54,964 bases of DNA, from assembly GCF_007990755.1 (NCBI RefSeq), contig NZ_BJXA01000062.1, positions 1-54,964 of the forward strand, read 5' to 3'. Origin of the DNA: Nocardia ninae NBRC 108245 (GTDB lineage: Bacteria; Actinomycetota; Actinomycetes; Mycobacteriales; Mycobacteriaceae). The notes under the pieces were generated by a model, which was given only the letters and a program-made list of their open reading frames with translations, made no database searches and was not told the origin of the DNA. Position 1 is the first letter of the stretch, and every line of letters begins with the position of its first letter. Both the position numbers and the translations under genes were made by a program. Below, in pieces: positions 25,066-40,932 of the stretch.

Positions 25066-25069
<4 letters not shown>

Positions 25070-26277
25070 GGCGTGCTGGTGTCAGCGGGCGCGTTGTGCG
25101 GGCGGGCGCTGATCCGCTTGACGTAGCTGGTGATGTTCTCCAGGGTCTCGCCGAGCGAGTCGCCGCCGAACTTCTCCAGCGCGGCCTGCGCGACGACCAG
25201 CGCGACCATGGACTCCGCGACGACGCCGGCTGCGGGCACGGCGCACACGTCCGAGCGCTGGTGGATGGCGACGGCTTCCTCGCCGGTGGTCATGTCGACG
25301 GTGGCCAGGGCGCGCGGCACGGTGGAGATCGGCTTCATCGCGGCGCGCACGCGCAGTGCTTCGCCGTTGGTCATGCCGCCCTCCAGGCCGCCGGCCCGGT
25401 TGGTCGAGCGCAGCACGCCGTCGCTGCCGGGCCGCATCTCGTCGTGCGCCTGGCTGCCGCGCCTGCGCGCGGTCTCGAAACCGTCGCCGACCTCGACGCC
25501 CTTGATGGCCTGGATGCCCATGAGTGCGGCGGCGAGCCGCGAATCGAGACGGTTCTCGCCACTGGTGAACGAGCCCAGTCCGACCGGCAGACCCTCGACG
25601 ACCACCTCGACGACGCCACCGAGGGTGTCACCGTCCTTCTTGGCCGCCTCGATCTCGGCGATCATCGCGGCCTCGGCGTCCTTGTCGAACGCGCGCACCG
25701 GGCTCTCGTCGATGGCGGCGAGGTCGGCGGCGGCCGGGATGACACCCGTGGTGTTCTGGGCGGTGCCGATCGAGACGACGTGCGAGATCACCTCGACGCC
25801 GAACGCCTGCCGCAGGAAGTTCCGCGCCACGGTGCCCGCCGCGACGCGCGCCGCGGTTTCCCGGGCACTGGCGCGTTCCAGCACGTTGCGTGCGTCGTCG
25901 AAGTCGTACTTGAGCATGCCGGAGTAGTCGGCGTGGCCGGGGCGTGGCCGGGTGAGCGGGGCATTGCGGGCCAGTTCGGCGAGCTCGTCCGGGTCGACCG
26001 GGTCGGCGGACATGACCGTCGTCCACTTGGGCCACTCGGAGTTGGCGATCTCGATGGCGACCGGTCCGCCCATGGTGCGGCCGTGCCGGACACCGCCGAC
26101 GACGGTCACCTTGTCGGCCTCGAACTTCATCCTGGCGCCGCGGCCGTACCCGAGCCTGCGGCGCGCCAACTGCGCGGAGATCTCGTCGGACGTGACCTCG
26201 ACACCGGCCACCATCCCCTCGAGGATGGTGACGAGAGCGGGACCGTGGGATTCTCCGGCAGTTATCCAGCGCAACAC
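25066..26277 (-). CDS. aroC: Chorismate synthase
   Basis: 403 residues. Makes chorismate from EPSP, with reduced FMN. Starts [15 protein letters not shown], contains [21 protein letters not shown], the signature [15 protein letters not shown], and [11 protein letters not shown] and [11 protein letters not shown]. The GTG at 26277 gives the standard N-terminus ([12 protein letters not shown]); ATG at 26286 would add three residues. First gene of the aroC-aroK-aroB operon, with 4-nt overlaps at both junctions. Confidence 0.97.
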
Positions 26278-26534
26278 GTGCTCCATCTTCCCATGTCGGC
26301 GCGCCCGCTCCGGCACGCGGCCCGCAGTGATGACGGGCACGTTCGGCGCACCCACCGTCCCCGCACCCGGTGAGGCGCTGTCGCATCGGCCCGAACCCCC
26401 GATGCCCGACGCCGCAATCCGCCGACGCCTTGCCCGTCGCCCGACGCACCTTGCGGTACTCGCGGGCGGCCGTCGCCCGGCCGCAATGCGGTTCAGCCCG
26501 GGATTGGCAGAAGCAATGCCTGCCGCTGTCCGCA

Positions 26535-27152
26535 TCATCCGGCACTCGCGGTGGCCAGCGCACACACTGTGGCTATACACATAGCAGGCCCGTGCGGTAC
26601 CGCGATTCGGCCGGGCCTGTTGCACTTGCCCGTGGCGACCAATTCGGCGCGCGGCGGCGCATTCGAAGGGCTCGGTGGAATCCGACTAAGGCGTGTTCGC
26701 GCTCGCTTCCACACCCCGTGCCGGTCATGAGCATCAGGCGCCGATCGACCGGCGGGATCGCGGGTTCGGCGGGAGAAATTGATGGGACCACGAATCCGGC
26801 ACAAGACAACCACGGCAATCCCCGCGCACGCCGTGAGCAACGGCGCGGCCACCGCCGCCTGAACCCACACGTCCCCACCACCGAGCGCCGCCGCCGCACC
26901 CAACCCGACGGCAAGCTTCACATCTCCGGCACCGAACGCCGCGGGTAGCGCCAGATGCACCAGCAGATACGGCACCGCGAGCAGCACGGCACCCAGTAAT
27001 GCGGCTGTGCATTGATCTGTGGACAAGGCATAACCGAACACCGTGACCGCACCCCATCCGGTCAGCGAATTCGGCAATCTCCGCCGCCGAAAATCGATGA
27101 CGCTCAACACAACACACCACGCGAGGAGGGCGGCGAAGGCAACATTCGGCAT
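26535..27152 (-). CDS. Type IV prepilin peptidase (A24 family)
   Basis: 205 residues. A membrane aspartyl protease: the first active Asp is in [15 protein letters not shown] and the second in the GXGD motif [11 protein letters not shown]. About four helices are seen. It lacks the N-terminal methyltransferase domain of full-length PilD, as in Rv2551c of mycobacteria, which also lies between aroE and aroC. After the last core helix there is an unusual insert of about 60 polar residues (about 130-190) before the typical end [16 protein letters not shown]. The start at 27152 matches the family; the frame is open further upstream. The 257-bp gap to aroC has no other feature. Confidence 0.85.
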
Positions 27153-27374
27153 GCCGTCCACTCTCGTCCGATCGCGGCGCGTGACAACCCCGCTCGACCC
27201 GAATGTGGATAGCTTTCCGACATGTGGACAACGATCGATCCCCATGCCGCCCGGTTCGTAAAACGGCGAGTACCAACGGCATCCGCGATCGCAAGCATGA
27301 TCTTCCGCACGAGGTCAGCGCACTCGCGGCAGCCCGAGCACGTGTTGTATGCGGGCGATACGGCGTGTCGGCGG

Positions 27375-27380
27375 TAGCTT
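27375..27380 (+). promoter_or_regulatory. -10 box, probable leaderless start of pepQ
   Basis: TAGCTT (TANNNT) ends 6 nt before the ATG at 27387, with no SD sequence in between. Confidence 0.5.
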
Positions 27381-27386
27381 TGAACC

Positions 27387-28514
27387 ATGTGTGCTGATCA
27401 CGTGGGCCAGACGCCCGACTACGCCGCGCGGCGTGGCGCGCTGCGGAGCCTGCTGGTGGAGAACGGAGTCGACGCTCTGCTGGTCACCGATCTGGTGAAC
27501 CTCAGATACCTGACGGGGTTCACCGGATCCAACGCGGCGCTGCTCGTGCACTCCTGGGACATGCGCAATGCTGAAGAGCGCACGGTGATCGGCACCGACG
27601 GCCGCTATCGCACCCAGGTCGCCGAGCAGGTTCCGGATCTCCGCGCCGAGATCGCCAGGGCGACCGCCCGCCGGATCCTCGAGCTGGCCGGGGAGTGGCA
27701 GCTCGGCCGGGTCGGCTACGAGAGCCACATCGTCACCGTCGAGCAACATCGCGGCTTCGTCGAGCAACGCACCGGCCTGGATTTCGTCCCCACACCCGGC
27801 CTGGTCGAGCAGCTGCGCATGGTGAAGGACGCCTACGAGGTGGCCCAGCTCCGGGCGGCCTGCGCGGTGGGCGACGCCGGGCTCGCCACGCTGCTGGAAC
27901 GCGGCCTGCTGCGCCCCGGCCGCACCGAACGACAGGTCGCCAGGGACCTGGAGTGGGCCATGTACGAGCACGGCGCCGACGCGGTGTCGTTCGAGACCAT
28001 CGTCGCGACCGGGGTGAATTCGGCTGTCCCGCATCATCGGCCGACCGAGGCGGTGCTGGCCGCCGGTGATTTCGTCAAACTCGACTTCGGCGCCACGGTC
28101 GGCGGCTACCACTCGGACATGACCCGCACCTTCGTGCTCGGCACCCCCAGCGACTGGCAACGCGAGGTGTATGAGCTGGTCGCAGCCTCGCAGCGGGCCG
28201 GGCGAGAGGCACTGCGACCCGGCGTCAAGGTCGCCGACGTGGACGCGGCGTCGCGCGCGGTGATCGAGGCGGCCGGACACGGCAAGCTGTTCGTGCACGG
28301 CCTCGGGCACGGGGTGGGATTGCAGATCCACGAAGCGCCGGGCATCGCGAAAAACGGAACCGGTACACTTCTTGCTGGCGTGGCGGTGACCGTCGAACCC
28401 GGTGTGTACTTTCCCGGCCGCGGCGGGGTCCGGATCGAGGACACGCTCGTGGTGCGCGAAGGGGGCCCGGAGTTGCTCACCAACACCAGCAAAGATCTGA
28501 CCGTCGTCGATTGA
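27387..28514 (+). CDS. pepQ: M24 family Xaa-Pro aminopeptidase/dipeptidase
   Basis: 375 residues. The N-terminal creatinase-like domain ([20 protein letters not shown]) precedes the pita-bread catalytic domain with the five metal ligands: [17 protein letters not shown] (two Asp), [16 protein letters not shown] (His), [11 protein letters not shown] (Glu) and VRIEDTLVV (Glu). It cleaves the bond before proline in peptides. It comes just before efp in related genomes too (Rv2535c in M. tuberculosis), as here. Confidence 0.95.
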
Positions 28515-28561
28515 CGTCGGTCGACCACCATGTTGTTTACGAATTAGGAGATCCGAGGACA

Positions 28562-29125
28562 GTGGCGGACACCAGCGACTTCAAGAACGGCCTTGTGCTG
28601 AAGATCGACGGTCAGCTCCAGCAGATCGTCGAATTCCAGCACGTCAAGCCGGGCAAGGGTCCCGCGTTCGTGCGGACCAAGCTGAAGAACGTGCTGTCCG
28701 GCAAGGTCGTCGACAAGACCTTCAACGCGGGCGTCAAGGTGGAGACCGCGACGGTCGACCGCCGCGACATGACCTACCTGTACCACGACGGTTCGGACTT
28801 CGTCTTCATGGACGGCGACACCTTCGACCAGATCTCCATCGCCGAGGCGACCATCGGCCCCGGCGCGCGCTTCCTGCTGGAGAACATGACCGTGCAGGTC
28901 GCCACGCACGAGGGCGCGCCGCTGTACGTCGAGCTCCCGGTCACCGTCGAGCTCGAGGTCCAGCACACCGACATCGGCCTGCAGGGCGACCGCTCCACCG
29001 GCGGCACCAAGCCCGCCACGCTGGAGACCGGCGCCGAGGTTCAGGTCCCGCTGTTCATCAACACCGGCGACAAGCTGCGCATCGACTCGCGTGATGGCAG
29101 CTACCTCGGCCGAGTCAACGCCTGA
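28562..29125 (+). CDS. efp: Elongation factor P
   Basis: 187 residues, exact family length. Relieves ribosome stalling at polyproline. Three beta-barrel domains; the tip loop carries Lys in [14 protein letters not shown], the position modified in some bacteria; signature [15 protein letters not shown] at the end. The GTG at 28562 follows GGAG and GAGGA 6-14 nt upstream and gives the usual [10 protein letters not shown] start; earlier in-frame codons overlap pepQ. Confidence 0.97.
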
Positions 29126-29217
29126 TCGCCCCCCGCGGTGGGAGCGTCAGGCCCGGAGGCGGTAGCGAAGCGTAACCACGCAGGGCCCGCTCCGACCGCC
29201 ATAGATACAGCGACTGG

Positions 29218-29223
29218 GATAAT
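29218..29223 (+). promoter_or_regulatory. -10 box, probable leaderless start of nusB
   Basis: GATAAT ends 7 nt before the GTG at 29231 and overlaps the ATG at 29222, which favours the GTG as the start. Confidence 0.45.
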
Positions 29224-29230
29224 GGTGACT

Positions 29231-29737
29231 GTGGCTGAACAGCCGTTAGACAAAAAGTCGTTCAAGAAGCTCGGCACGCGGCACAAAGCCCGCCGCCGGG
29301 CCGTGGATCTGCTCTTCGAGGCAGAGGCACGCGACGTCGACCCGGCCGACCTGCTCGACGAGCGGGTCGAGCTGGCCGCCCGCGACCAGGGGGTCGCGCC
29401 GGTGCACGCCTACACGCACACGCTGGTCGAGGGCGTCGCCGACGACCTCGATCGGGTGGACGGCACCATCGAGTCCTACCTGAAGGACTGGGAGCTGTCC
29501 CGGCTGCCCGCCGTCGACCGCGCCATTCTGCGGATCGCGGTGTGGGAGTTGTTCCACGCCAACGATGTTCCGCCGGTCGTCGCGGTGGACGAGGCGGTGG
29601 AGCTGGCCAAGGAGCTGTCCACCGACGACTCCCCGTCGTTCGTGAACGGCGTGCTCGGCCAGGTCGTGCTGATCGCGCCGCAGGTGCGGGCCGCGGCCGC
29701 CGCCACCCGCGCGCCGCGCCCCGAGGCCGAGGCGTGA
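29231..29737 (+). CDS. nusB: Transcription antitermination factor NusB
   Basis: 168 residues. All-helical NusB fold: [21 protein letters not shown] at the start, [20 protein letters not shown] and the [27 protein letters not shown] signature. With NusE (S10) it binds boxA of rRNA transcripts. The start is uncertain between ATG 29222 and GTG 29231. It overlaps the following gene by 4 nt. Confidence 0.95.
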
Positions 29738-30386: not shown

Positions 30387-31277
30387 ATGGGGCGGTTGCT
30401 GATCTGGTTGCGTAACAACGTCGACGGTGTGGTCGCGTTGGTGCTCGCCGTGGTGGTCGGCCTGCTCGCAGTCCTCGACGTGATCAGCGTGGACAACGTC
30501 AACGCGGCGGTGCTCCTGGTACTCGCGTTGCTGGCGACCACCCTGCTGCGCGATCGGCACCTGTCGGCTCAGGCTGTGCGCGACGCGAATTCGGTGCAGC
30601 TGCTCTACGGTCCGGAGATCGGGCACGCGCACACGCTCGCCCGGCGCGGCACCGAGCAGTGGATCTTCAAGGGCGGCACCGGAACCTACATCCGCGCGGT
30701 GACGCTGCGCGAGTGCGTGGAGAACGCCCGGCGCGAACAACGCCCGCTGCGTGTGCAATTGGAGATTCTCGACCCGACCAACGAAGCGCTGTGCAAGACC
30801 TACGCCCAGTTCCGTTCGTCGTTGTCGCCCGAGGCCGACCGCACCGGCGAGTCGTGGACCACCGAGCGCACCCGCAAGGAAGCCTTCGCCACCGTGCTGG
30901 CCGCCTGCTGGTACCGGCAGCGGTTCACCTTCCTGACCATCGACGTCGGCTTGTCGACGGTGATGACGACGTTCCGCTGGGATCTGTCGTCCAGCTGCGT
31001 GATCGTCACCCAGGACAATCCGAACACGCCCGCGCTGATGTTCGAGCGGGACAAACCGTATTACCGCGATTTCAACCGCGAGCTGGTCGCCAGCTTCAAG
31101 CAGACCCGGCAGGTCGCGCTGAGCCGTAGCGAGGAACTGCCGCTGTCCGACGAGCCGACCGTCGACCAGGTCCGCAGCCTGTTCCAGCTGCTCTCGCTGG
31201 AACTCCCGGCCGCTTTCACCGATCGCGACGTCGCCGACATCGTGCGTCGCGCGCTCCAGCCGAGGAACCCGTATTAG
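30387..31277 (+). CDS. Membrane-anchored FKGGTG-family protein, copy A
   Basis: 296 residues. Two N-terminal membrane helices (VVALVLAVVVGLLAVLDVI and VNAAVLLVLALLATTLL, within residues 1-55) with the rest predicted cytosolic. The cytosolic domain carries motifs shared with the second copy at 39865-40932: GTEQWIFKGGTG, LEILDPTNEALC, VLAACWYRQRF, TFRWDLSSSCVIVTQ, PYYRDFNREL, EPTVDQVRSLFQLL and a final NPY. I do not recognise a named family. GGAGGG precedes the ATG. The stop overlaps the GTG of the cupin gene by 1 nt, so it starts a three-gene operon. As a paired family around a TIR-NACHT gene it may be a membrane partner or sensor; that is inference. Confidence 0.85.
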   Translation: MGRLLIWLRNNVDGVVALVLAVVVGLLAVLDVISVDNVNAAVLLVLALLATTLLRDRHLSAQAVRDANSVQLLYGPEIGHAHTLARRGTEQWIFKGGTGTYIRAVTLRECVENARREQRPLRVQLEILDPTNEALCKTYAQFRSSLSPEADRTGESWTTERTRKEAFATVLAACWYRQRFTFLTIDVGLSTVMTTFRWDLSSSCVIVTQDNPNTPALMFERDKPYYRDFNRELVASFKQTRQVALSRSEELPLSDEPTVDQVRSLFQLLSLELPAAFTDRDVADIVRRALQPRNPY

Positions 31278-31963
31278 TGAACGAATATGCCCGCGTCCGC
31301 ACGTTGATCGGTTCCGATGCCACCGGCGCCGCGGTGCGCCGCTGGGCCCGCGACGTGCTCGCGGGTGTCGTCGACGGTAGCTCGGAGCTGACCGCGGTCC
31401 GGCATCCGTTGGGGTTCTTGTGTTTTCCCGCGTGGCGCGGCGGCGGTCTCGGTATCTGCGTGCACGTCTGGACCGAGGGGGTGCGCGACGACTCGACCAC
31501 CTCGAAGGTGCACGCGCACAGCTGGGATCTGCTCAGCACCGTGCTGTACGGCACCGTCGGCAACGAGATCATCGAGATAGACAGCGCGCCGGCCCGTCCG
31601 ACGCATCGCCTGTTCGAGATCCAGAGCACCGCGGACGGCGACCTGGTGCGGGCGACGCAGCGGCTGGTCAGCTACCGGACCCGCTCCCGCGAATACTTCC
31701 ACTCGGGCGAGGTATACACCCTTCCGAACGGTGCGTTCCACGTGTCCGATGTGCACGGCGAGGCGGCGACGGTGGTGCTCGGCGAGGACAATCGCGACCG
31801 GCCGGACCTGTCGCTCGGTACGATCGCCACCAGCGACCACTGGGTGCACCGCACGCTGTGCACCCCCACCGAGACCCGGCGCGCCGCGCACACCGTGCTG
31901 GCCCACCTGCGGGATCAGCCGCTACCGAAGCAACTGGAGAACCGATGCGAGCGGGCAACGTAA
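31277..31963 (+). CDS. Cupin-like protein
   Basis: 228 residues. The cupin fold is suggested by two motifs: VHAHSWDLLSTVLYGTVGNEI (His pair and later Glu, about residues 77-97) and LPNGAFHVSDVHGEAATVVL (His, about residues 149-168). The layout resembles cysteine-dioxygenase-like cupins, but no clear Cys crosslink or substrate motif is seen. The GTG start shares the last base of the preceding TAG, and the next gene's ATG lies 19 nt inside its end, so all three are likely translated together. Substrate unknown. Confidence 0.75.
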   Translation: MNEYARVRTLIGSDATGAAVRRWARDVLAGVVDGSSELTAVRHPLGFLCFPAWRGGGLGICVHVWTEGVRDDSTTSKVHAHSWDLLSTVLYGTVGNEIIEIDSAPARPTHRLFEIQSTADGDLVRATQRLVSYRTRSREYFHSGEVYTLPNGAFHVSDVHGEAATVVLGEDNRDRPDLSLGTIATSDHWVHRTLCTPTETRRAAHTVLAHLRDQPLPKQLENRCERAT

Positions 31964-32817
31964 TGAACCAGGTACTCCCGGACACCTTGCTCGATATCGC
32001 GGCCGAGGTGGCCGTCACGGCGGCGGTCGAGGCGGGCCACGCGATCCGGGCCGGGCTGCTGGGCGCGCTGACCGTGCACACCAAGGACGCGACCGGCGAC
32101 GTGGTCACCGACCTGGATCTGCGCGCGGAGCAGATCATCCTGGGCCATCTGCGGCGCGTCTTCCCGGACCATCGCATCCTCGCCGAGGAGTCCGGCGTCC
32201 TCGGCAGCACCGACGACACCTGGTGCTGGGTCGTCGACCCGCTGGACGGCACCAACAACATCACCATCGGCCTACCGGTCTGCACGGTCGGTATCGCGCT
32301 GTGCCACAACGGGACACCGGTCCTCGGCGTGGTGCACGAGCCGATCGCCGACCACACCTGGACCGCCGTCCGCGGCCGCGGCGCCTTCGGCCCGAACGGC
32401 CCGCTGTGGCATCCGGCGCGCCGTCCCGCGGCCGCCCCGGTGCTCGCGTGGCTCCAGGGTTACCCGGTGACTCGCGCCGACCCGACCGCCCGCGCCCTGC
32501 GCCTCACCCTGGAGTCGGCGTCCCGCCGCCTGATCCAACTCTGGTCCCCGCTGCTGTGCTGGGTCATGTTGAGCAACGGTGACATCGACGGTTTCGTCGG
32601 CTACCGCGCGGGCCTCGTCGACCTCCCCGCCGGCGCCCTGCTCGCCCGCGAATCCGGCATGCACCTCACCGACTTCGACGGCACCACCCTCGACGAGCGC
32701 CTCGAATTACCCGTCGGCGAAGTGGATTTCATCGCAGGCAGCGCCGAGATGATCCCCGAACTGACGCTGCTGGTGAAGTCCGCGGCAGAGGTCACCGTCA
32801 CCGGTCTACCCGACTAG
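31945..32817 (+). CDS. Inositol monophosphatase-family phosphatase
   Basis: 290 residues. IMPase/FBPase fold: first metal Glu pair in LAEESGVLG, then VVDPLDGTNNITIGLPVC (metal Asp residues), and the C-terminal VDLPAGALLARESG, which stands for the usual WDxAAG with Asp kept but Trp lost. The family includes inositol phosphatases, histidinol phosphatase and the PAP phosphatase CysQ; the substrate cannot be told. The ATG at 31945 has GGAG 7 nt upstream and overlaps the cupin gene by 19 nt; ATG 31963 lacks an SD. Its stop codon and that of the convergent transporter share the sequence CTAG. Confidence 0.88.
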   Translation: MRAGNVMNQVLPDTLLDIAAEVAVTAAVEAGHAIRAGLLGALTVHTKDATGDVVTDLDLRAEQIILGHLRRVFPDHRILAEESGVLGSTDDTWCWVVDPLDGTNNITIGLPVCTVGIALCHNGTPVLGVVHEPIADHTWTAVRGRGAFGPNGPLWHPARRPAAAPVLAWLQGYPVTRADPTARALRLTLESASRRLIQLWSPLLCWVMLSNGDIDGFVGYRAGLVDLPAGALLARESGMHLTDFDGTTLDERLELPVGEVDFIAGSAEMIPELTLLVKSAAEVTVTGLPD

Positions 32818-34082
32818 CCGAAGACGAGCAGGGCCGCGACAGCGCCGGTGGTGCCGACAACGGCGAGCCCGAGTCCGGTCAGCACGAAGCGCAGCATGGG
32901 GACTCGAACGTTGTGTGTGCGGCAGAATTCCAGGCAGAGCAGCGTTGCCAGCGAGGCCCAGGGGGTGACGATCGGGCCGATGTTGGTGCCGATGAGCAAG
33001 GCCAGCAGTTGATTGTGGTTCTCCGGCGGTACGACCGCTTCGCCCGCGGTGTAGGCGGGGAGATTGTTGGCGATGTTCGACAGCGTCGCGCCCGCGCCCG
33101 CCGCGCGGAAGGCACCGGCCGCGCCCGAGTCGGACCCGATCAACGTGTGCATCAGATCGGATAGGCCGAGGCGGCCGAGGGTGGGTACCACCAGGAATAG
33201 CCCGACGACGAAAACCAGTAGCCGCCAAGGGAACAGCGCCCAGCGCAGCGACGGGCGGTCGAAGACGGCGAAGGCGAGCACCGCGATGGCGGCGGCGATG
33301 GTCGCGGCGATGCCGATGCGATGGCCGACGAACGGGATAGCGAAGATGAACAGCAGGCAGGCACCCGCCGTGGTGTACATCAACACCCGTTCCTTCGCAT
33401 TCTGCGGCCGGATCGGCTCGGGCGGCAGGTAGCGGTCGTTGTCGCGGCGTCCGCGCCGCCAGTACCACACCCAGAGGCACAGCATCGTCGCCGCCAGCGA
33501 AACCAGCTGGGGCGCCCACATTTTCGCGGCGAACTCGGTCGCCGTGAGCGCGACCCGGTCGGCGGCGAGCAGATTGGTCAGGTTGGAGACCGGCAGCAGC
33601 AGGCTGGCCGTGTTGGCGAGCCAGATGGTGGTGATGGCCAGCGGGAGCGGCGGGATGCGGGCCGGCGCGGCGAGCGCGAGCATGACCGGGGTGATCAGGA
33701 CGGCCGTCGTATCGAGGTTCAACAGCGTTGTGGTGGCGGAGGCGAACAGCACGCACAGCACGAACAACGCCGGATAGTAGCCCCGCCCGAGAATGGCCAG
33801 CCGGTGCGCGATCACGTCGAACACCTTGGCCTGACGGGTGAGTTCGGCCAGCACGATCACGCTGCCGAGGAACAGCAGCAGCGGGCCGATCCGGCGCATG
33901 TTGTCGGCGGCCTCGTCGCGCGGCAACAGCCCAGTGAGCACGCACAGCAGCCCGGCGAGCAGCAGCCCGATCCGGACCCAGTCCAGCACGCTCAAACCCC
34001 AGTGCAGGCGTTCGGCCGCCGCCGCGGCGCTCGCCGGAGGGTTCCGTTCGGAGGAGTCGACCTGTTCGGGCACAACTGCCAT
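32814..34082 (-). CDS. SLC13/ArsB-like ion transporter
   Basis: About 422 residues with ten or more membrane helices. Typical of the ArsB/NhaD/SLC13 group: LNLDTTAVLITPVMLALA, the internal-repeat motifs TIWLANTASLLLPVSNLTNLL and TLSNIANNLPAY, and LLIGTNIGPIVTPWASLATLL. The repeated SN/NN-containing hairpins are the family's substrate site. Substrate (arsenite, dicarboxylate, sulfate or another anion) unknown. The start is 34082 or 34100; the first has a weak AGG upstream. The gene is divergent from the TIR-NACHT gene with only about 10-27 bp between start codons and ends inside the stop of the phosphatase gene. Confidence 0.88.
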   Translation of the reverse strand: MAVVPEQVDSSERNPPASAAAAAERLHWGLSVLDWVRIGLLLAGLLCVLTGLLPRDEAADNMRRIGPLLLFLGSVIVLAELTRQAKVFDVIAHRLAILGRGYYPALFVLCVLFASATTTLLNLDTTAVLITPVMLALAAPARIPPLPLAITTIWLANTASLLLPVSNLTNLLAADRVALTATEFAAKMWAPQLVSLAATMLCLWVWYWRRGRRDNDRYLPPEPIRPQNAKERVLMYTTAGACLLFIFAIPFVGHRIGIAATIAAAIAVLAFAVFDRPSLRWALFPWRLLVFVVGLFLVVPTLGRLGLSDLMHTLIGSDSGAAGAFRAAGAGATLSNIANNLPAYTAGEAVVPPENHNQLLALLIGTNIGPIVTPWASLATLLCLEFCRTHNVRVPMLRFVLTGLGLAVVGTTGAVAALLVFG

Positions 34083-34109: not shown

Positions 34110-37100
34110 GTGACACAGCAGGGTGGGCGGGCACGGGACTTCTTCATCAGCTATTCCCCGGCGGACGAACGATGGGCCACGTGGCTGGCTTGGCAGTTGG
34201 AGAGCGCGGGATATCGCACCCTGATCCAGGCCTGGGACTTCGTGCCCGGCACCAACTTCATCGACTTCATGGACCGCGGCGTGCGCGACTCGACCGTCGT
34301 GCTCGCGGTGCTCTCCGAGAACTACCTCCAATCGCGTTACGGGACAATGGAATGGCAAGCCGCGTTCCGGACAGACCCCGGCAAGCTGCTGCCGATCCGC
34401 GTCGCCGACTGCGCGCTGGAGGGGCTGCTCGCCACCATCACCTACATCGACCTGGTGGGTGTGCCGACCGACGAGGAAGCCCGCCGCATCCTGCTGGAGC
34501 GGGTGCGGCACCTGCTCGCGGGCCGGGGCAAACCGCACATCGAACCTCGCTTCCCGAACGAACTCGGTGTCGGCGCGCTACCGGACCGCTACGGCGAAGA
34601 GGACCCGGCAGGCACCGTCGAGTCCCCGATGAGCAGGCGTACTCCCGTTGCGGCCCCGGCCTTTCCGGGTGGCAAGCACCGGGACGAGCACCGTTCCGGA
34701 GTCAGCGTGCTGCACGTGGCCGGTCCCCGCTTCGGCCGTGGCCTGTTCGCCGCCGACGAGCCGAGCACCGCCCGCGAACTCCAGTCGCGCATCTACGCGA
34801 ACGTCACCCAGCTGGTCGGTCAGGGCGTGCCGAAACCCGACCTGATCGTCGTGACCGGCGATGTCACCGAATCCGGTCGCCCGCGCGAGGTGGACGAGGC
34901 CCTCACCTTCCTGACCGGGTTGCGCGTGCTGCTCGGACTCGAACCCGACCGGCTGATCGTGGTACCGGGCAATCACGATGTCTCCAAGGTGGCGTGTCAC
35001 GCCTACTTCCTGAATTGCGAAGCGCGCGATCGTAAACCGCAGCCGCCGTACTTCCCGAAGCTCGAGCAGTACGCGCGGTTGTTCGCCGAGTTGTACCAGG
35101 GTCTGGACCATCTGGTGTTCGACGTCGGCCAGCCGTGGACGCTGTTCCCGATCCCCGAATTGCGGGTGGTGGTCGCAGGTTTGAACTCGACCATGGCGGC
35201 GACACACCTGCCCGACGACGACTATGGGAGCATCGGCGAACCCCAGGCCGCCTGGTTCGCCGAGCGCCTGCGGCAGTTCGAGGAGAGCGGCTGGCTCCGC
35301 CTCGGCGTGGTCCGGCACGACCCGCTGCCCGGCCCGGCCGCGTCGCCCCGCGATCCCGCGCTGCTGCGCGACGCGGACACCCTGTCGCGGCTGCTCGGCG
35401 GCCGGCTGAACCTGCTGCTGCACGGCCCGGGTCCCGGTGGGCCGCACCTGGATCGGCTGGACGGCAGGCTGCCCGTCATTCCCGGGGCCGCGGCCGGCCG
35501 TGATGAGATCATCCAGCTGACCCACGAGGGCCTCGCCCGTTTCTCCGCGACCGCAAAGGATCCCGCGGAACCCACCGCACGCCTGGCCGAGCCGTGGACG
35601 AATGCTGTTGCGGCACTGGCCTCGGACGCACCGGCCGAACTCACCGGTCCGGACGAGCTCACCGAGCCCGCCGCCCTGGAGGCGCCCGCCGTGCTCGACC
35701 CGCACGGGCGGCTGCTGGAACGGGTGGTCGAGGTGTGCGAAACCCGGTATCCGGAGGCCAAGATCCGCCGCGTCGAGACCGATCCGCCGCACCTGCTGCT
35801 CACCCATCAGCGCGACGAGGTCACCGCGCAGTGGCGCGTCGGCGTGCACGTCGGCGACATGACCAGGCGGGTGGTCGAGGAATTCCTGGGCCACGACCCG
35901 GAATACGGCTCCGAACTCGTCTATCGCGGTGCGCCGCCGCCGCGTTCGCTGCGCGACGAAGCCGCCAGCCATGGTCTGCGGGTACGCAGCTTCACCGAAT
36001 TCCAGGGCCTGCTCGACCTGGACGAGTACCTGGCCAAGCAGGTGGAGCGGTTGCGCACCGACCGCCGCTACCCGCCGGATCTCTATGTGCCGCAACGTTT
36101 CCGGCTGCTGGAGCACGGCGAACAGCCGGTGCACGACGACCTGGTCGCCGAACTGCTGCGCCTGGTCGCCGTCGACCACGGCCGATTCGTCCTGGTGCTC
36201 GGCGACTTCGGCCGCGGCAAGACCTTCGCGCTGCACGAGGTGGCCCGCCGCATCACCGAGACGATGCCCGCGCTGATCCCGATCCTGATCGACCTGCGCA
36301 CCCTCGACAAAACGCATTCGGTGGACGCGCTGGTCGCCGCGCACCTGGCCAACCACGGCGAGGACCGGATCGACCTGAAAGCGTTGCGTTACATGCTCCG
36401 TGAGGGCCGGGTGGTGCTGCTGTTCGACGGCTTCGACGAACTCGTCACCCGGATCAGCTACGAGTTCGCCGCGGACCATCTGGAGACGCTGCTGCAAGCC
36501 GCGGTCGGCAAGGCGAAGATCATTGTGGCCAGTCGCACTCAGCATTTCGAGTCCCGCGCGCAGGTGCTGACCGCGCTGGGGGAGCGGGTCGGGCTGCTCC
36601 AGGATCGGCAGATCCTCAGCATCGAGGAGTTCGCGCCCGCGCAGGTGCACGCCTTCCTCACCAACCGCTACGGCGGCGACGTGCCGCGCGCCGACGCCAG
36701 GATGCGGCTGATCACCGGCATCCAGGACCTGCTCGGCCTGGCCCAGAACCCGCGCATGCTCAGCTTCATCGCCGATCTGGACGAGCGGCGGTTGCGGGCC
36801 GCGGCGGGCGCCCAGCAGACCGTCGGCGCGGCCGGGCTGTATCGGGAGATCCTCGAATCCTGGTTGTCCTACGAGGCCGATCGCACCGCCGCGACGGCGG
36901 GCTCGCTGCCCGGTCTCGGCCTGCACGAATTGTGGCTCGCCGTCACCGAATTCGCGTTGCGCATCTGGGAGACCGGCGAGCCGTACCTGCGGCTGGCCGA
37001 ATTGACCGAGGTGGCACAGCATCTGGTGGAGATGACCGGCGCGAACCGGATGTCGGTGCAGCAGTCCACGCACGCCATCGGGTCCGGCAGCCTGCTGGTG

Positions 37101-39863
37101 CGGACCGAGGACAACCTGTTCGGCTTCATCCACTCGTCGGTGCCGGAATGGCTGGTGGCCAACCACATCGCCGAACAGTTCGCCGCTGGTGTCGCCGCAC
37201 CGCCGCAGCTCGCGCACGCGCCGCTGTCCCAGCTGTCCATCGACTTCCTGTGCGACCTGGCCGATATCCGGTCCGCGCGCACCTGGGCCGACGGCGTGCT
37301 CGACGACCCGGCCGCCGACGAGGTCTCCCGGACCAACGCGATCCGGCTGACCACCCGGCTGCGCACCGCGCCCACCGCCGACCTGCGCGGCGCGGTGCTG
37401 GCCGGTGAGGATTTGTCCTATCGCGACATGCAGCAGGTCGATCTGACCGGCGCGGATCTGTCCGGCGCCCGGCTGGTCGGGGTGAACCTGGACCGGGCGA
37501 TCCTGCGTGGTGCCCGGCTGGTCGGTGCCCGCCTGGACGAGGCGAGTCTGGTCGGCGCCGACCTCACCGACGCCGATCTCACCAGGGCGCGGCTGGCCCG
37601 CGCGGATCTGACCGGGTCGCGCGCACCGGGTAGTCGCTGGAACCGCGCGGCACTGCTCGATGTCGTCGGCACGCCGGCGGGCACCGATCTGCGCGGCGCC
37701 GCCCTGGTGCCCGGCTCGGAGGCCAGGACCGAATTCGCCCCTGCATCGATCGGTGTCCGGCACGGATTCCATGCCAGGCACGGCCGGTTGCCGCAGCCGG
37801 TCGCCTACAGCCCGGACGGCGGCACCCTGGCCATCGGCAGCGATGACGGCGGCGTGCTGATCTGCGACTCGGAGACCGGGCTGCCGCTGCGCACGTTGCA
37901 GGGGCATCGCAATCGCTCGTTCGCGGTCGCCTACACCGACACCGTGCTGATCAGCGGGTCCAGCGACGGCACCGTCGGGCTCTGGGACGTGACGACCGGC
38001 GAGCTGCGCCGAATCCTGCACGGCCACAGCCAATGGCCGTGGCCGGTCATGCTGAGCCGCGCGGGTGACCTGCTGGCCACCGGCGATGCCGAGGGCATGC
38101 TGCGGCTGTGGTCGCTACCCGGCGGTGACCTGCGGCACGAATGCGTTCCCGCAGACGGCAGCCGAGAGTTGATCTACAGCTTGGCTTTTCACGACGGCGT
38201 GGTCGCCGCCGCGTATCGCGACGGTGTGGTGCGGCTGTGGGATGCCGAAACCGGTCGGGAGCGCGGCAAGTTCGTCGGCGCTCCGGGTTCGGTGTTCCGG
38301 GTCGCGTTCAATCCAGCGGGTGATCTGCTCGCGGTCGGCGATGTCCGCGGCCTGGTCGCGCTCTGGGATCCGGTGCGCTGCACCTTGGTTCGTGAGCTGC
38401 CCGGCCACACCGGACGGGTGTACACGCTGGCCTTCCATCCCCGGTTGCCGCTGCTGGCCAGCGGGGATACCGATGGGGGACTGCGCCTCTGGGATGTCGA
38501 GACCGGTCAGGTGCGGCACGCGCCGTCCGACCACAACGCGGCCATCTACTGGGTGGTCTTCGATCCGACCGGCGACCTGCTGGCCGCCGGTGACAGCGCG
38601 GGTCTGCTCACGCTGCGCGACAGCGCGACCGCCGAACTGCGGCACCGGATCACCGCGCACACCGGCTCGATCTGGCCGTTCGCCTTCCGGCCGGACGGCG
38701 GGCAGCTCGCGGTCACCGACGACCAATTCACCACGCGGCTCTGGGATCCCGTGACGGGCGGCTCCAGGCACGTGCTCACCGGGCACGGCAGGCAGGTCCG
38801 GTCGGTGACGTTCAACGCGGACGGCACGCTGCTCGCGGCAGGCGGCAACGACGGCGTGGTGCGGCTGTGGGATCCGGTGACGGCCAAGCAGATCCGGCGT
38901 CTGGTCGGCAGCGAGGACCGGCTGATCACCTTCGAAACGGCGCTGTTCAGTCCGGTGCAGCCGCAGCAGCTCGCGGTGGTCGGCAACGACGGGCGGTTGA
39001 GCCTGCTCAATCTCGACACCGGTCTGTTCCAGCGGCACATCAATGTCGAGGCCGCGCCGGTCTGGGCGATCGCCTTCGATCCCACCGATCAGTACGTGGC
39101 CACCGCGAACGACGACGACACGGTGATCATCTGGTCGCGGACCACCGGCGCGCTGCACATGGTGTGCTCGCAGCACCACGGACGGGTGCGGTCCATCGCC
39201 TTCGACGCCGAGGGCGCCACCATGGCCACCGGCTGCGACGATGCTGTGGTGCGGCTGTGGGACGTCGAATCCGGCAGGCTGCTGCGCGAACTGCACGGGC
39301 ACCGCGATCGGGTGTATGCCGTAGTCCTGCACGGTGACCGCGTGGCGAGCGTTTCCTGGGACAAGACGGTGCGCATCTGGGATGCCGACTCCGGGGCCTG
39401 CCTGCACGAGCTCACCCGGCACACCGGCCGCGTGTGGGCGGCGGCGGTCGACCCGCAGAGCGGCATCCTGGCCACCGGCGGCGAAGATCTGGTGGTTCGC
39501 CTGTGGGACATGGCAACCGGGCGGCACCTGCACACCATGGAGGGGCACAAGCGGCAGGTGTGGTCGCTGGCCTTCCACCCGTCCGGGCGGCTGCTGGCCA
39601 GTGGTGGCGACGACGGCAACACGATTCTGTGGACCGTGCCGGGCGGCGACTATCCGGACCCGGAGACGGCGCCGACCATTCGCGCGGAACTGCTCGGACT
39701 GTCCGAGGGGTGGGCGGCGCTCGCCCCCGACGGGCGGTACAAGTTCGAGGGCAATACCGCGGGTCAGTTCTGGCATGTGATCGGCATGGCGCGGTTCGAA
39801 TCCGGGGAGCTGGATCCTTATCTGCCCGAGGTCGGGCAGATACCGCTGGACGCGCCGTTCTGA
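34110..39863 (+). CDS. Giant TIR / degenerate phosphoesterase / NACHT / pentapeptide / WD40 protein
   Basis: 1917 residues. (1) TIR domain 9-125: RDFFISYSPADERWATWLAW, LIQAWDFVPGTNF, VLSENYLQS, E81-W82. (2) Calcineurin-type domain about 198-480 with GD250-251 and GNHD 287-290 kept, but the first DxH is G205-P-R207 and the last GHxH is G439-P-G-P442, so it is probably inactive. (3) Residues about 537-660, alpha/beta, possibly nuclease-like (VYRGAPPPRSLRDEAASHG; SFTEFQGLLDLDEYLA). (4) NACHT: Walker A GDFGRGKT (K704), Walker B LLFDGFDE (D773, D776), IIVASRTQHF; helical region to about 1090. (5) Pentapeptide repeats 1091-1197 (ADLSGARLVG). (6) About 15 WD40 repeats, 1233-1875, probably two propellers, then a conserved cap. 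STAND proteins with TIR domains often act in phage defence; the trigger here is unknown. GTG start, likely leaderless (CATACT 6 nt upstream). Confidence 0.93.
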   Translation: MTQQGGRARDFFISYSPADERWATWLAWQLESAGYRTLIQAWDFVPGTNFIDFMDRGVRDSTVVLAVLSENYLQSRYGTMEWQAAFRTDPGKLLPIRVADCALEGLLATITYIDLVGVPTDEEARRILLERVRHLLAGRGKPHIEPRFPNELGVGALPDRYGEEDPAGTVESPMSRRTPVAAPAFPGGKHRDEHRSGVSVLHVAGPRFGRGLFAADEPSTARELQSRIYANVTQLVGQGVPKPDLIVVTGDVTESGRPREVDEALTFLTGLRVLLGLEPDRLIVVPGNHDVSKVACHAYFLNCEARDRKPQPPYFPKLEQYARLFAELYQGLDHLVFDVGQPWTLFPIPELRVVVAGLNSTMAATHLPDDDYGSIGEPQAAWFAERLRQFEESGWLRLGVVRHDPLPGPAASPRDPALLRDADTLSRLLGGRLNLLLHGPGPGGPHLDRLDGRLPVIPGAAAGRDEIIQLTHEGLARFSATAKDPAEPTARLAEPWTNAVAALASDAPAELTGPDELTEPAALEAPAVLDPHGRLLERVVEVCETRYPEAKIRRVETDPPHLLLTHQRDEVTAQWRVGVHVGDMTRRVVEEFLGHDPEYGSELVYRGAPPPRSLRDEAASHGLRVRSFTEFQGLLDLDEYLAKQVERLRTDRRYPPDLYVPQRFRLLEHGEQPVHDDLVAELLRLVAVDHGRFVLVLGDFGRGKTFALHEVARRITETMPALIPILIDLRTLDKTHSVDALVAAHLANHGEDRIDLKALRYMLREGRVVLLFDGFDELVTRISYEFAADHLETLLQAAVGKAKIIVASRTQHFESRAQVLTALGERVGLLQDRQILSIEEFAPAQVHAFLTNRYGGDVPRADARMRLITGIQDLLGLAQNPRMLSFIADLDERRLRAAAGAQQTVGAAGLYREILESWLSYEADRTAATAGSLPGLGLHELWLAVTEFALRIWETGEPYLRLAELTEVAQHLVEMTGANRMSVQQSTHAIGSGSLLVRTEDNLFGFIHSSVPEWLVANHIAEQFAAGVAAPPQLAHAPLSQLSIDFLCDLADIRSARTWADGVLDDPAADEVSRTNAIRLTTRLRTAPTADLRGAVLAGEDLSYRDMQQVDLTGADLSGARLVGVNLDRAILRGARLVGARLDEASLVGADLTDADLTRARLARADLTGSRAPGSRWNRAALLDVVGTPAGTDLRGAALVPGSEARTEFAPASIGVRHGFHARHGRLPQPVAYSPDGGTLAIGSDDGGVLICDSETGLPLRTLQGHRNRSFAVAYTDTVLISGSSDGTVGLWDVTTGELRRILHGHSQWPWPVMLSRAGDLLATGDAEGMLRLWSLPGGDLRHECVPADGSRELIYSLAFHDGVVAAAYRDGVVRLWDAETGRERGKFVGAPGSVFRVAFNPAGDLLAVGDVRGLVALWDPVRCTLVRELPGHTGRVYTLAFHPRLPLLASGDTDGGLRLWDVETGQVRHAPSDHNAAIYWVVFDPTGDLLAAGDSAGLLTLRDSATAELRHRITAHTGSIWPFAFRPDGGQLAVTDDQFTTRLWDPVTGGSRHVLTGHGRQVRSVTFNADGTLLAAGGNDGVVRLWDPVTAKQIRRLVGSEDRLITFETALFSPVQPQQLAVVGNDGRLSLLNLDTGLFQRHINVEAAPVWAIAFDPTDQYVATANDDDTVIIWSRTTGALHMVCSQHHGRVRSIAFDAEGATMATGCDDAVVRLWDVESGRLLRELHGHRDRVYAVVLHGDRVASVSWDKTVRIWDADSGACLHELTRHTGRVWAAAVDPQSGILATGGEDLVVRLWDMATGRHLHTMEGHKRQVWSLAFHPSGRLLASGGDDGNTILWTVPGGDYPDPETAPTIRAELLGLSEGWAALAPDGRYKFEGNTAGQFWHVIGMARFESGELDPYLPEVGQIPLDAPF

Positions 39864-39864
39864 G

Positions 39865-40932
39865 CTAGGCGACGCCGCGCGCCAGATTGTCCCCGGCGCC
39901 GCGCAGGAACGGATTGCTGTCGCGCAGCGCCTTTTCGATGATCACCTGGACGTCGGCGTCGTCGTAGTCGTCGGGAATGTCCAGGCCGAGGACCTCGAAC
40001 AGCGTCCGTACCTCCGCGACGGTCGGTTCCTGATCGAGCGGAACCCGGGGCGCCAGTTCGATGGGTACGCGACGGCATTCGTGGAAGCTGGTCTGCAACT
40101 CGGTGCGCCACGAGTCGTAGTAGGGCTGGCCGCGTTGCACGATCATCGCCGGAAAGCGCGGCCCGCGTTGGGTGACGATCAGATAGCGCGAGGACATATC
40201 CCAGCGAAACATCGACACGCTCGAGGTGAGCGCGATCTCGATATCGAGGAATTGGCGCAGCCGCTGTTTATACCAGCAGACGGCGAGAATCGTTGCGTAC
40301 AACTCGATTTGGGTGCCTTTGGCGGTCCAGGTGAGCGCGTCGTCGTTCGCGCCTTCGGCCAGCGTTCGATACAGCGCCGCATAGCGGTGGCAGACATCGA
40401 GATCGGTGGGATCGAGGATCTCGATGCGCGCGTGGAAATCCCGGCCGTCGTGATGGGCCTGCTTGAGGCAGTCGGGCAGCGTCACCACGCGTGTGTGCGC
40501 GCCGGTGCCACCTTTGAACGTCCAGCGTTCGGTGCCTTGCCGTGCCTTGGCAAGTGCCTCCGAGACCTCGGCGCCGACGGCGAAGCGGACGGCGGCCAGG
40601 TCGTCGAGTGTGCGCTGGGTTCGTTCCAGCACGCCCTCGACGGGTGTCAGGGTGGCGACCCGCTCATGCAGTTCGCGCAAAGTGCCCGCGACCTCGGTGA
40701 TCGTCTGCCGGATTTCCGCGTTCACCGATTCCTGGCGCCACCGGTCCCGGAGCATCGCATAGGCGACCACACCGAGCGTGAGCGGAATGACCTTGCTGAC
40801 CAGATCGGTGGGAATCACGTCGACGAGGCCTAATACGCTCATGGTCACGGCTAGCGCCACCGCGACCACGCTTTCCGCATTGGATTTGATCCACTCGAGA
40901 TCGGTTCGCAGCTGCGCTGAAAAACGCCCCAT
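39865..40932 (-). CDS. Membrane-anchored FKGGTG-family protein, copy B
   Basis: 355 residues, clear paralogue of 30387-31277: GTERWTFKGGTG, IEILDPTDLDVC, ILAVCWYKQRL, MFRWDMSSRYLIVTQ, PYYDSWRTEL, EPTVAEVRTLFEVL and SNPF. Two membrane helices near residues 22-61 (VVAVALAVTMSVLGLVDVI; VIPLTLGVVAYAML). It differs from copy A in having about 55 extra residues after the helices, predicted coiled coil (IRQTITEVAGTLRELHERVA). Its stop is one base from the stop of the TIR-NACHT gene (convergent). GAAAGAG precedes the ATG. Function unknown. Confidence 0.87.
   Translation of the reverse strand: MGRFSAQLRTDLEWIKSNAESVVAVALAVTMSVLGLVDVIPTDLVSKVIPLTLGVVAYAMLRDRWRQESVNAEIRQTITEVAGTLRELHERVATLTPVEGVLERTQRTLDDLAAVRFAVGAEVSEALAKARQGTERWTFKGGTGAHTRVVTLPDCLKQAHHDGRDFHARIEILDPTDLDVCHRYAALYRTLAEGANDDALTWTAKGTQIELYATILAVCWYKQRLRQFLDIEIALTSSVSMFRWDMSSRYLIVTQRGPRFPAMIVQRGQPYYDSWRTELQTSFHECRRVPIELAPRVPLDQEPTVAEVRTLFEVLGLDIPDDYDDADVQVIIEKALRDSNPFLRGAGDNLARGVA

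Follow-up and report, generated by a model that had tools for sequence, protein, structure and literature searches.

The window, that is, the whole 54,964-nucleotide stretch of Nocardia ninae DNA that was analysed, contains a TIR-phosphoesterase-NA-iREase3-NACHT-pentapeptide-WD40 STAND gene on the forward strand at 34110..39863. A preliminary description made from the letters had read it as a single frame of 1917 residues, and that frame is intact, running from a GTG start to a TGA stop without an internal stop. When the protein was compared with Pfam, the TIR, NACHT, pentapeptide and WD40 domains named in that description all matched and Metallophos matched partially. The TIR_2 domain occupies residues 11-128 (34140..34493, E 1e-35) and is followed by a degenerate phosphoesterase related to class III cyclic-nucleotide phosphodiesterases at approximately residues 193-439 (34686..35426), within which the partial Metallophos match covers about residues 232-318 (E 5e-7). 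A possible nuclease-like region had also been proposed; it corresponds to PF22739 (NA-iREase3, residues 533-637, 35706..36020, E 4e-38), so the nuclease-family fold is there, but the family is termed inactive by Pfam, under the full name 'NACHT-associated inactive Restriction Endonuclease 2'. The NACHT ATPase (about residues 692-850, 36183..36659; PF05729, E 2e-10, 41 bits vs 26.7) has the Walker A and Walker B motifs of a NACHT-clade STAND NTPase, read directly as GDFGRGKT and LLFDGFDEL and intact, as claimed. The pentapeptide repeats (approximately residues 1089-1171, 37374..37622, E 1e-26) and the roughly 15 WD40 repeats of the description were recovered as well. The WD40 repeats number 15, at about residues 1230-1843 (37797..39638), with repeat ends spaced by about 42 residues between 1250 and 1840, and are enough for two seven-bladed propellers. 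All of these features lie on the forward strand.

The phosphoesterase did not prove to be the working extra module that had been supposed, as its active site is degenerate and most of its metal ligands are gone. In a profile search its best solved relatives were Rv0805 entries (E 1.8e-8), and an origin from Mre11/SbcD-type nucleases was rejected on the comparison of SbcD (E 0.011) and Mre11 (E 0.068) with that Rv0805-type phosphodiesterase value. The seven metal ligands were assumed to be those of the Rv0805 ligand list, in Rv0805 numbering. The window protein retains three of the seven (D251, N288 and H403), and the 95 TIR-type rows of the ligand alignment, the window protein counted among them, retain one ligand in 38 cases, two in 34, three in 22 and five in a single case (L194). 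The Asp of motif I is retained in 1 of 95 rows and its His in none, D63 is retained in 54, N97 in 19 and H169 in all 95, and the two His of the last motif, GHxH, are retained in 5 and 3 rows at a position with many gaps. The alignment misplaced this last motif in two relatives outside the cassette clade described below (L194 and L201), where direct reading gives GHTH in both. These two relatives retain nearly all motifs (SDTQ or SDVQ, GDL, GNHD, HH and GHTH) and a third (L220) has the same motif I, so the degeneration is a real, lineage-specific loss. The window copy still has GD, GNHD and one His, and because D251, N288 and H403 remain, weak residual metal binding is possible.

Phosphoesterase-NACHT proteins have already been reported in defence. 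According to the DefensePredictor study (PMC13092281), DS-8 is a metallophosphatase-NACHT antiphage protein whose predicted phosphatase catalytic residues are essential for defence. The window protein resembles DS-8 in joining a calcineurin-type domain and a NACHT domain in one protein, and it differs in having a degenerate version of that domain with a TIR ahead of it. The dependence of DS-8 on these residues, together with the GD, GNHD and His left in the window copy, would favour a calcineurin-type domain that is still an active phosphodiesterase and acts as a second effector. Such a second effector was rejected on the motif loss and is considered very improbable: the intact metal motifs of a DS-8-type protein were not found, with three or fewer ligands in 94 of 95 TIR-type rows and with motif I and the gappy GHxH nearly always lost, GD and GNHD are mostly replaced by GN and GPRD in the Micromonospora copies, and the motifs survive nearly complete in L194 and L201. 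Since the live metallophosphatase of DS-8 suggests, by analogy, that such a domain can be used as an effector, the dead phosphoesterase is plausibly a retired one.

The TIR domain presents a different picture. Glu81, which we take to be the putative catalytic glutamate from its position, is conserved in 94 of 95 TIR-type rows, the remaining row being a gap at this position. The protein thus combines a TIR domain with the putative catalytic Glu of TIR NADases, and the TIR is a putative live effector with NADase activity. Two dead enzyme folds, the phosphoesterase and the REase domain that Pfam terms inactive, sit between this conserved-Glu TIR and the NACHT domain.

Four genes immediately upstream of the STAND gene, which the preliminary description had missed, are of interest. 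A two-TM protein with a PLD-like domain (30387..31277), a cupin with a predicted cysteine-dioxygenase-like fold (31277..31963) and an inositol-monophosphatase-superfamily (IMPase-type) phosphatase (31963..32817) are encoded on the forward strand with a one-base overlap between each pair, and a CitMHS/ArsB-type permease is encoded on the reverse strand (32814..34082, with 34082 or 34100 as candidate starts), convergent with these three genes and divergent from the STAND gene. Neither the two-TM protein, which has predicted TM helices, nor the cupin had a Pfam match up to E 10. The catalytic motif of the PLD superfamily is HKD (HxKx4D), and it was present in 0 of 67 two-TM homologues; the predicted PLD-like fold nonetheless matches, which suggests a PLD-like protein lacking the catalytic motif. 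In the cupin, H79, H81 and H155 are invariant across 16 aligned rows, and a cupin fold with a three-His metal site is consistent with a putative thiol-dioxygenase-like protein; its profile gave no match against PDB sequences (best E 0.54). The motif DP[LIV]DGT is found in 61 of 62 IMPase homologues. The metabolic names used here for cupin, phosphatase and permease are at the superfamily level only. A second copy of the two-TM PLD-like gene, a 41% identical paralogue, lies just downstream of the STAND gene on the reverse strand (39865..40932); a copy at this flank was found in two loci (L055 and L066) among the best 80 of 252 relatives. Another Nocardia genome (G903) has two adjacent two-TM copies near the cupin gene. 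The upstream flank (25066-29737) encodes chorismate synthase, a prepilin-type peptidase, an M24 peptidase, EF-P and NusB. With housekeeping genes around it, the cassette shows no obvious sign of belonging to a defence island, which speaks against the defence reading.

The STAND protein is a member of a family and not a one-off, and proteins with the same domain order do exist. When 397 genomes of the order were searched with residues 190-1080, 23 of them matched. In a comparison of 20 loci, 16 ORFs align without a break from residue 7 (10 in some) to about 1085 at 48-56% identity, and 5 further ORFs in the same regions align from the phosphoesterase onward only; the shared architecture is far beyond chance. 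Over the 471 residues queried, the STAND protein shows 100% identity to a record of Nocardia suismassiliense S-137. A collection-wide scan gave 286 pattern matches, among which 252 relatives were confirmed; the named loci (L055-L134) are the best 80 of these 252, a choice that is biased to close relatives and covers Nocardia, Pseudonocardiaceae, Micromonospora, Actinomadura, Streptosporangiaceae and a few MAGs.

The preliminary description had treated the gene as a stand-alone giant, and this is not supported by its neighbourhood in relatives, where it belongs to a conserved multi-gene cassette. The permease gene adjoins the STAND gene in 78 of the best 80 of 252 loci; in the two exceptions, L087 and L096, the locus begins at a contig edge. 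In the same 80 loci the two-TM gene was found in 67, the IMPase in 62, the cupin in 61 and all four partners together in 58, compared with 8-9 for each of four other window neighbours. When the comparison was restricted to the 66 of these 80 loci with a core identity below 62%, the permease was found in 64, the two-TM gene in 55, the IMPase in 50, the cupin in 49 and the four other neighbours in 0. Each of the 78 permease genes is divergent from the STAND gene, at a distance of 517-1004 bases from the point where the aligned core begins (about residue 190). By lineage, again among the best 80 of 252, it is present in 10/10 Nocardia a, 6/6 Nocardia b, 4/4 Pseudonocardiaceae, 5/5 Micromonospora and 53/55 Streptosporangiales loci. 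The cupin and IMPase genes are present in 0/6 Nocardia b loci, and the common core is therefore taken to be STAND, permease and two-TM protein. Additionally, 90 of 104 loci examined had a strong TIR type (local profile >100 bits); 88 of these had the permease, with L199 and L200 as the exceptions, and the cupin was found in 74. The remaining 14 loci had the permease once (L192, whose N-terminus is cut by a contig edge) and the cupin never; L087 and L096, among these 14, are likewise contig edges. The partnership of TIR and these genes gains nothing from a TIR found beside the trio in one locus (L211, genome G609), which was discounted since this 7.6-Mb actinobacterial genome has 35 TIR_2 matches.

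One caveat of these counts is that 55 of the best 80 of 252 loci are Streptosporangiales, including MAGs grouped with them, and that most of these share one inherited chromosomal site, so they are not independent. The caveat emerged from a search for a sixth conserved partner among the 12 widest clusters of neighbouring ORFs, which yielded no candidate: these clusters were antisense or stray frames, GNAT, a helicase fragment, an S1-domain protein, a histidine kinase and a frame matching the endonuclease/exonuclease/phosphatase family. In the Streptosporangiales loci GNAT is present in 46 of 55, a uvrB-like gene in 41 and an rpsA-like gene in 34, where GNAT and the S1-domain protein were confirmed by Pfam, the latter being read as RpsA, and the uvrB-like piece is a helicase-type fragment read by eye as UvrB. 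The position of these markers varies about as little as that of the partners, which would fit a stand-alone defence gene whose neighbours are linked to it by common ancestry of the site. At two such uvrB/rpsA sites (L205 in G536 and L206 in G632) the two-TM and cupin genes persist, and STAND, permease and IMPase were undetected within 20 kb; such persistence would also fit a stand-alone gene, and the pair could represent partial loss or an ancestral pair. However, Nocardia a and b, Pseudonocardiaceae, Micromonospora, f32 and f33 retain the permease without the three markers, of which none was found in Nocardia a (nusB/efp instead in 8/10), Nocardia b (0/6), Micromonospora (0/19, some from the same genome), Pseudonocardiaceae (nusB/efp in 1/4), f32 (0/7) or f33 (0/3). 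The gene order also differs in the f32 lineage, where the permease lies downstream of the STAND gene on the same strand and two loci (L186 and L188) hold all five genes; three f33 loci hold all five genes in the divergent order. The cassette therefore occurs in two gene orders and several chromosomal contexts, and trypsin-type and other-TIR relatives have 0/4 partners in their flanks. Linkage by shared site ancestry is thus considered improbable, and functional partnership is preferred.

Co-occurrence in whole genomes points in the same direction. In a class sample of 394 genomes, 23 had the cupin, 39 the STAND core and 20 both (P=5e-20, relatedness ignored); the cupin was present in 18/18 genomes with a STAND match above 450 bits, and 19 of the 39 STAND-positive genomes had no cupin match. 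Among 121 Micromonospora genomes the STAND core (all types) was found in 32, the cupin in 33, the two-TM gene in 31 and all three in 28, and STAND and cupin were 3.5-43 kb apart in the 25 genomes with both on one contig. Among 93 Nocardia genomes the corresponding numbers were 22, 20 and 25. The two-TM gene was found in 22/22 STAND-positive Nocardia genomes compared with 3/71 STAND-negative ones (P=2e-18, relatedness ignored), and a cupin match was present in 17 and absent in 5 of those 22; two-TM and cupin matches occurred together in 3/71 STAND-negative genomes, one of them weak. Two-TM and cupin genes were also found without STAND, in G536, G632, G710, G766, G780, G849 and G890, and weakly in G909. 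The STAND gene is patchy within genera, as its counts for Micromonospora (32 of 121 genomes) and Nocardia (22 of 93) show.

The N-terminal effector slot is swapped among relatives. A Trypsin_2 N-terminus was found by Pfam in L050 and L051 and by local profile in L052 and L053, an HTH N-terminus by Pfam in L199, and more distant TIRs by Pfam in L194 and L197 and by local profile in L195 and L198, and in four relatives (L219, L222, L224 and L228) a TIR is fused directly to iREase-NACHT without the phosphoesterase. In a tree of 106 rows, made with a quick method and with several long branches flagged, the cassette type forms one clade of 91 rows (SH-aLRT 99), 88 with TIR and 3 cut by contig ends, and the trypsin and other N-terminal types fall outside it.

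No named system that accounts for this architecture was found. PADLOC matches were partial only and NCBIfam hits, from a scan that covered STAND residues 1-1330, were far under their cut-offs (DS8, 38 bits vs 790; DS9_1, 70 vs 420), and no PADLOC, NCBIfam or Pfam hit model covers the whole domain order, in agreement with the earlier failure to match it. Avs and other STAND defence proteins have an N-terminal effector, a central STAND NTPase and a C-terminal repeat sensor, with a swappable effector, and in Avs (AVAST) the sensor is TPR-like. The window protein is likewise built of effector, STAND NTPase and C-terminal repeats with a swappable effector, but it has WD40 repeats rather than a TPR-like sensor and has partner genes, and no Avs model was among the 9 PADLOC hits. 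Thoeris is TIR signalling with a separate effector, and the likeness lies in a TIR as probable NAD-using enzyme with possible downstream partner proteins. However, the window TIR is part of a NACHT protein, and a Pfam scan of 9 neighbours found no SIR2, SLOG or macro domain of a ThsA-type effector.

Two further papers, PMC7159879 and PMC8195603, are presumably from the Aravind group. They describe STAND NTPases with interchangeable effectors, calcineurin and TIR included, in multicellular bacteria, and the conflict systems described there share with the window protein the swappable effectors and the pentapeptide or beta-propeller repeats. The terms cupin, inositol, permease, phospholipase D and PLD are absent from the main texts of both, and 'transporter' appears once in each, in an unrelated context. 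Among the matches listed in a literature search, which were mostly abstract openings, no published account of the architecture with these partners was found.

The very large STAND protein has a resemblance to the immune sensors of animals and plants. Because four little-known genes travel with it in many soil actinobacteria, it is probably a component of a multi-gene system of immune type that has apparently not been described. The preferred reading, to which we assign a probability of roughly 0.6, is a TIR-STAND conflict system with a live TIR, non-catalytic phosphoesterase and REase domains and neighbours that are functional partners. From the logic of its domains, sensing would be NLR-like and the output would come from the TIR. 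The WD40 propellers and the pentapeptide coil would detect a trigger, the NACHT ATPase would then assemble the protein, and the clustered N-terminal TIR domains would consume or convert NAD+. As for the two dead domains, calcineurin-type and REase, they may serve as linkers or bind a ligand, and they are possibly what is left of earlier effectors. The membrane-anchored dead-PLD protein and the permease would be functional partners of this version of the TIR, joined in most lineages examined by the cupin and the IMPase-type phosphatase. A guess at their roles is that a phosphorylated ligand, derived from the TIR or from elsewhere, is bound by the dead-PLD protein, which would act at the membrane together with the permease, and that the phosphatase keeps the signal in check.

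Of the roles considered for the cassette, defence is the likeliest. A sulfur/thiol or phosphate-ester metabolic or stress pathway, with the TIR-STAND protein as its NTP-dependent regulator or guard, is possible though rather unlikely. The cupin, the CysQ/IMPase-like phosphatase and the anion permease do resemble metabolic enzymes or transporters, and the cassette is chromosomal and often inherited at a fixed site. Plasmid carriage was rejected, since the one cupin match and the one STAND-core match in a plasmid collection of 72,556 records fall in the same Nonomuraea record of 11.85 Mb. However, the patchy distribution within genera and the TIR-NACHT-WD40 layout with swapped effectors are the pattern of a conflict system, and the resemblance to metabolic proteins goes no deeper than superfamily names.

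An extension of the conflict-system reading, put forward tentatively and judged unlikely, is that the cassette represents a class of NLR-like bacterial immunity in its own right. A TIR-STAND protein built on retired effectors would make a nucleotide or other phosphorylated signal, a membrane-anchored dead-PLD receptor would read it, and permease, cupin and phosphatase would execute or buffer the response. The N-to-C order of TIR, dead phosphodiesterase and dead REase would then record successive effector replacements. The family makes the evolution of bacterial NLR-like proteins testable, including effector swaps and the survival of old effectors as inactive domains. It also draws attention to four uncharacterised genes that accompany a TIR-STAND protein across several actinobacterial families and of which two lack a Pfam match. 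If these partners act downstream of the TIR, they would form a new branch of nucleotide-based bacterial immunity.

Some loci show irregular arrangements of the STAND gene itself. One (L052, genome G083) has a tandem pair of trypsin-type STAND genes, the first of which encodes 1056 residues and ends about 500 residues past the iREase region, without most of the C-terminal part. In two others (L199 in G752 and L200 in G814), a STAND ORF with the phosphoesterase-iREase region is followed by the cupin gene and then by a separate ORF that consists of a TIR and part of a phosphoesterase.
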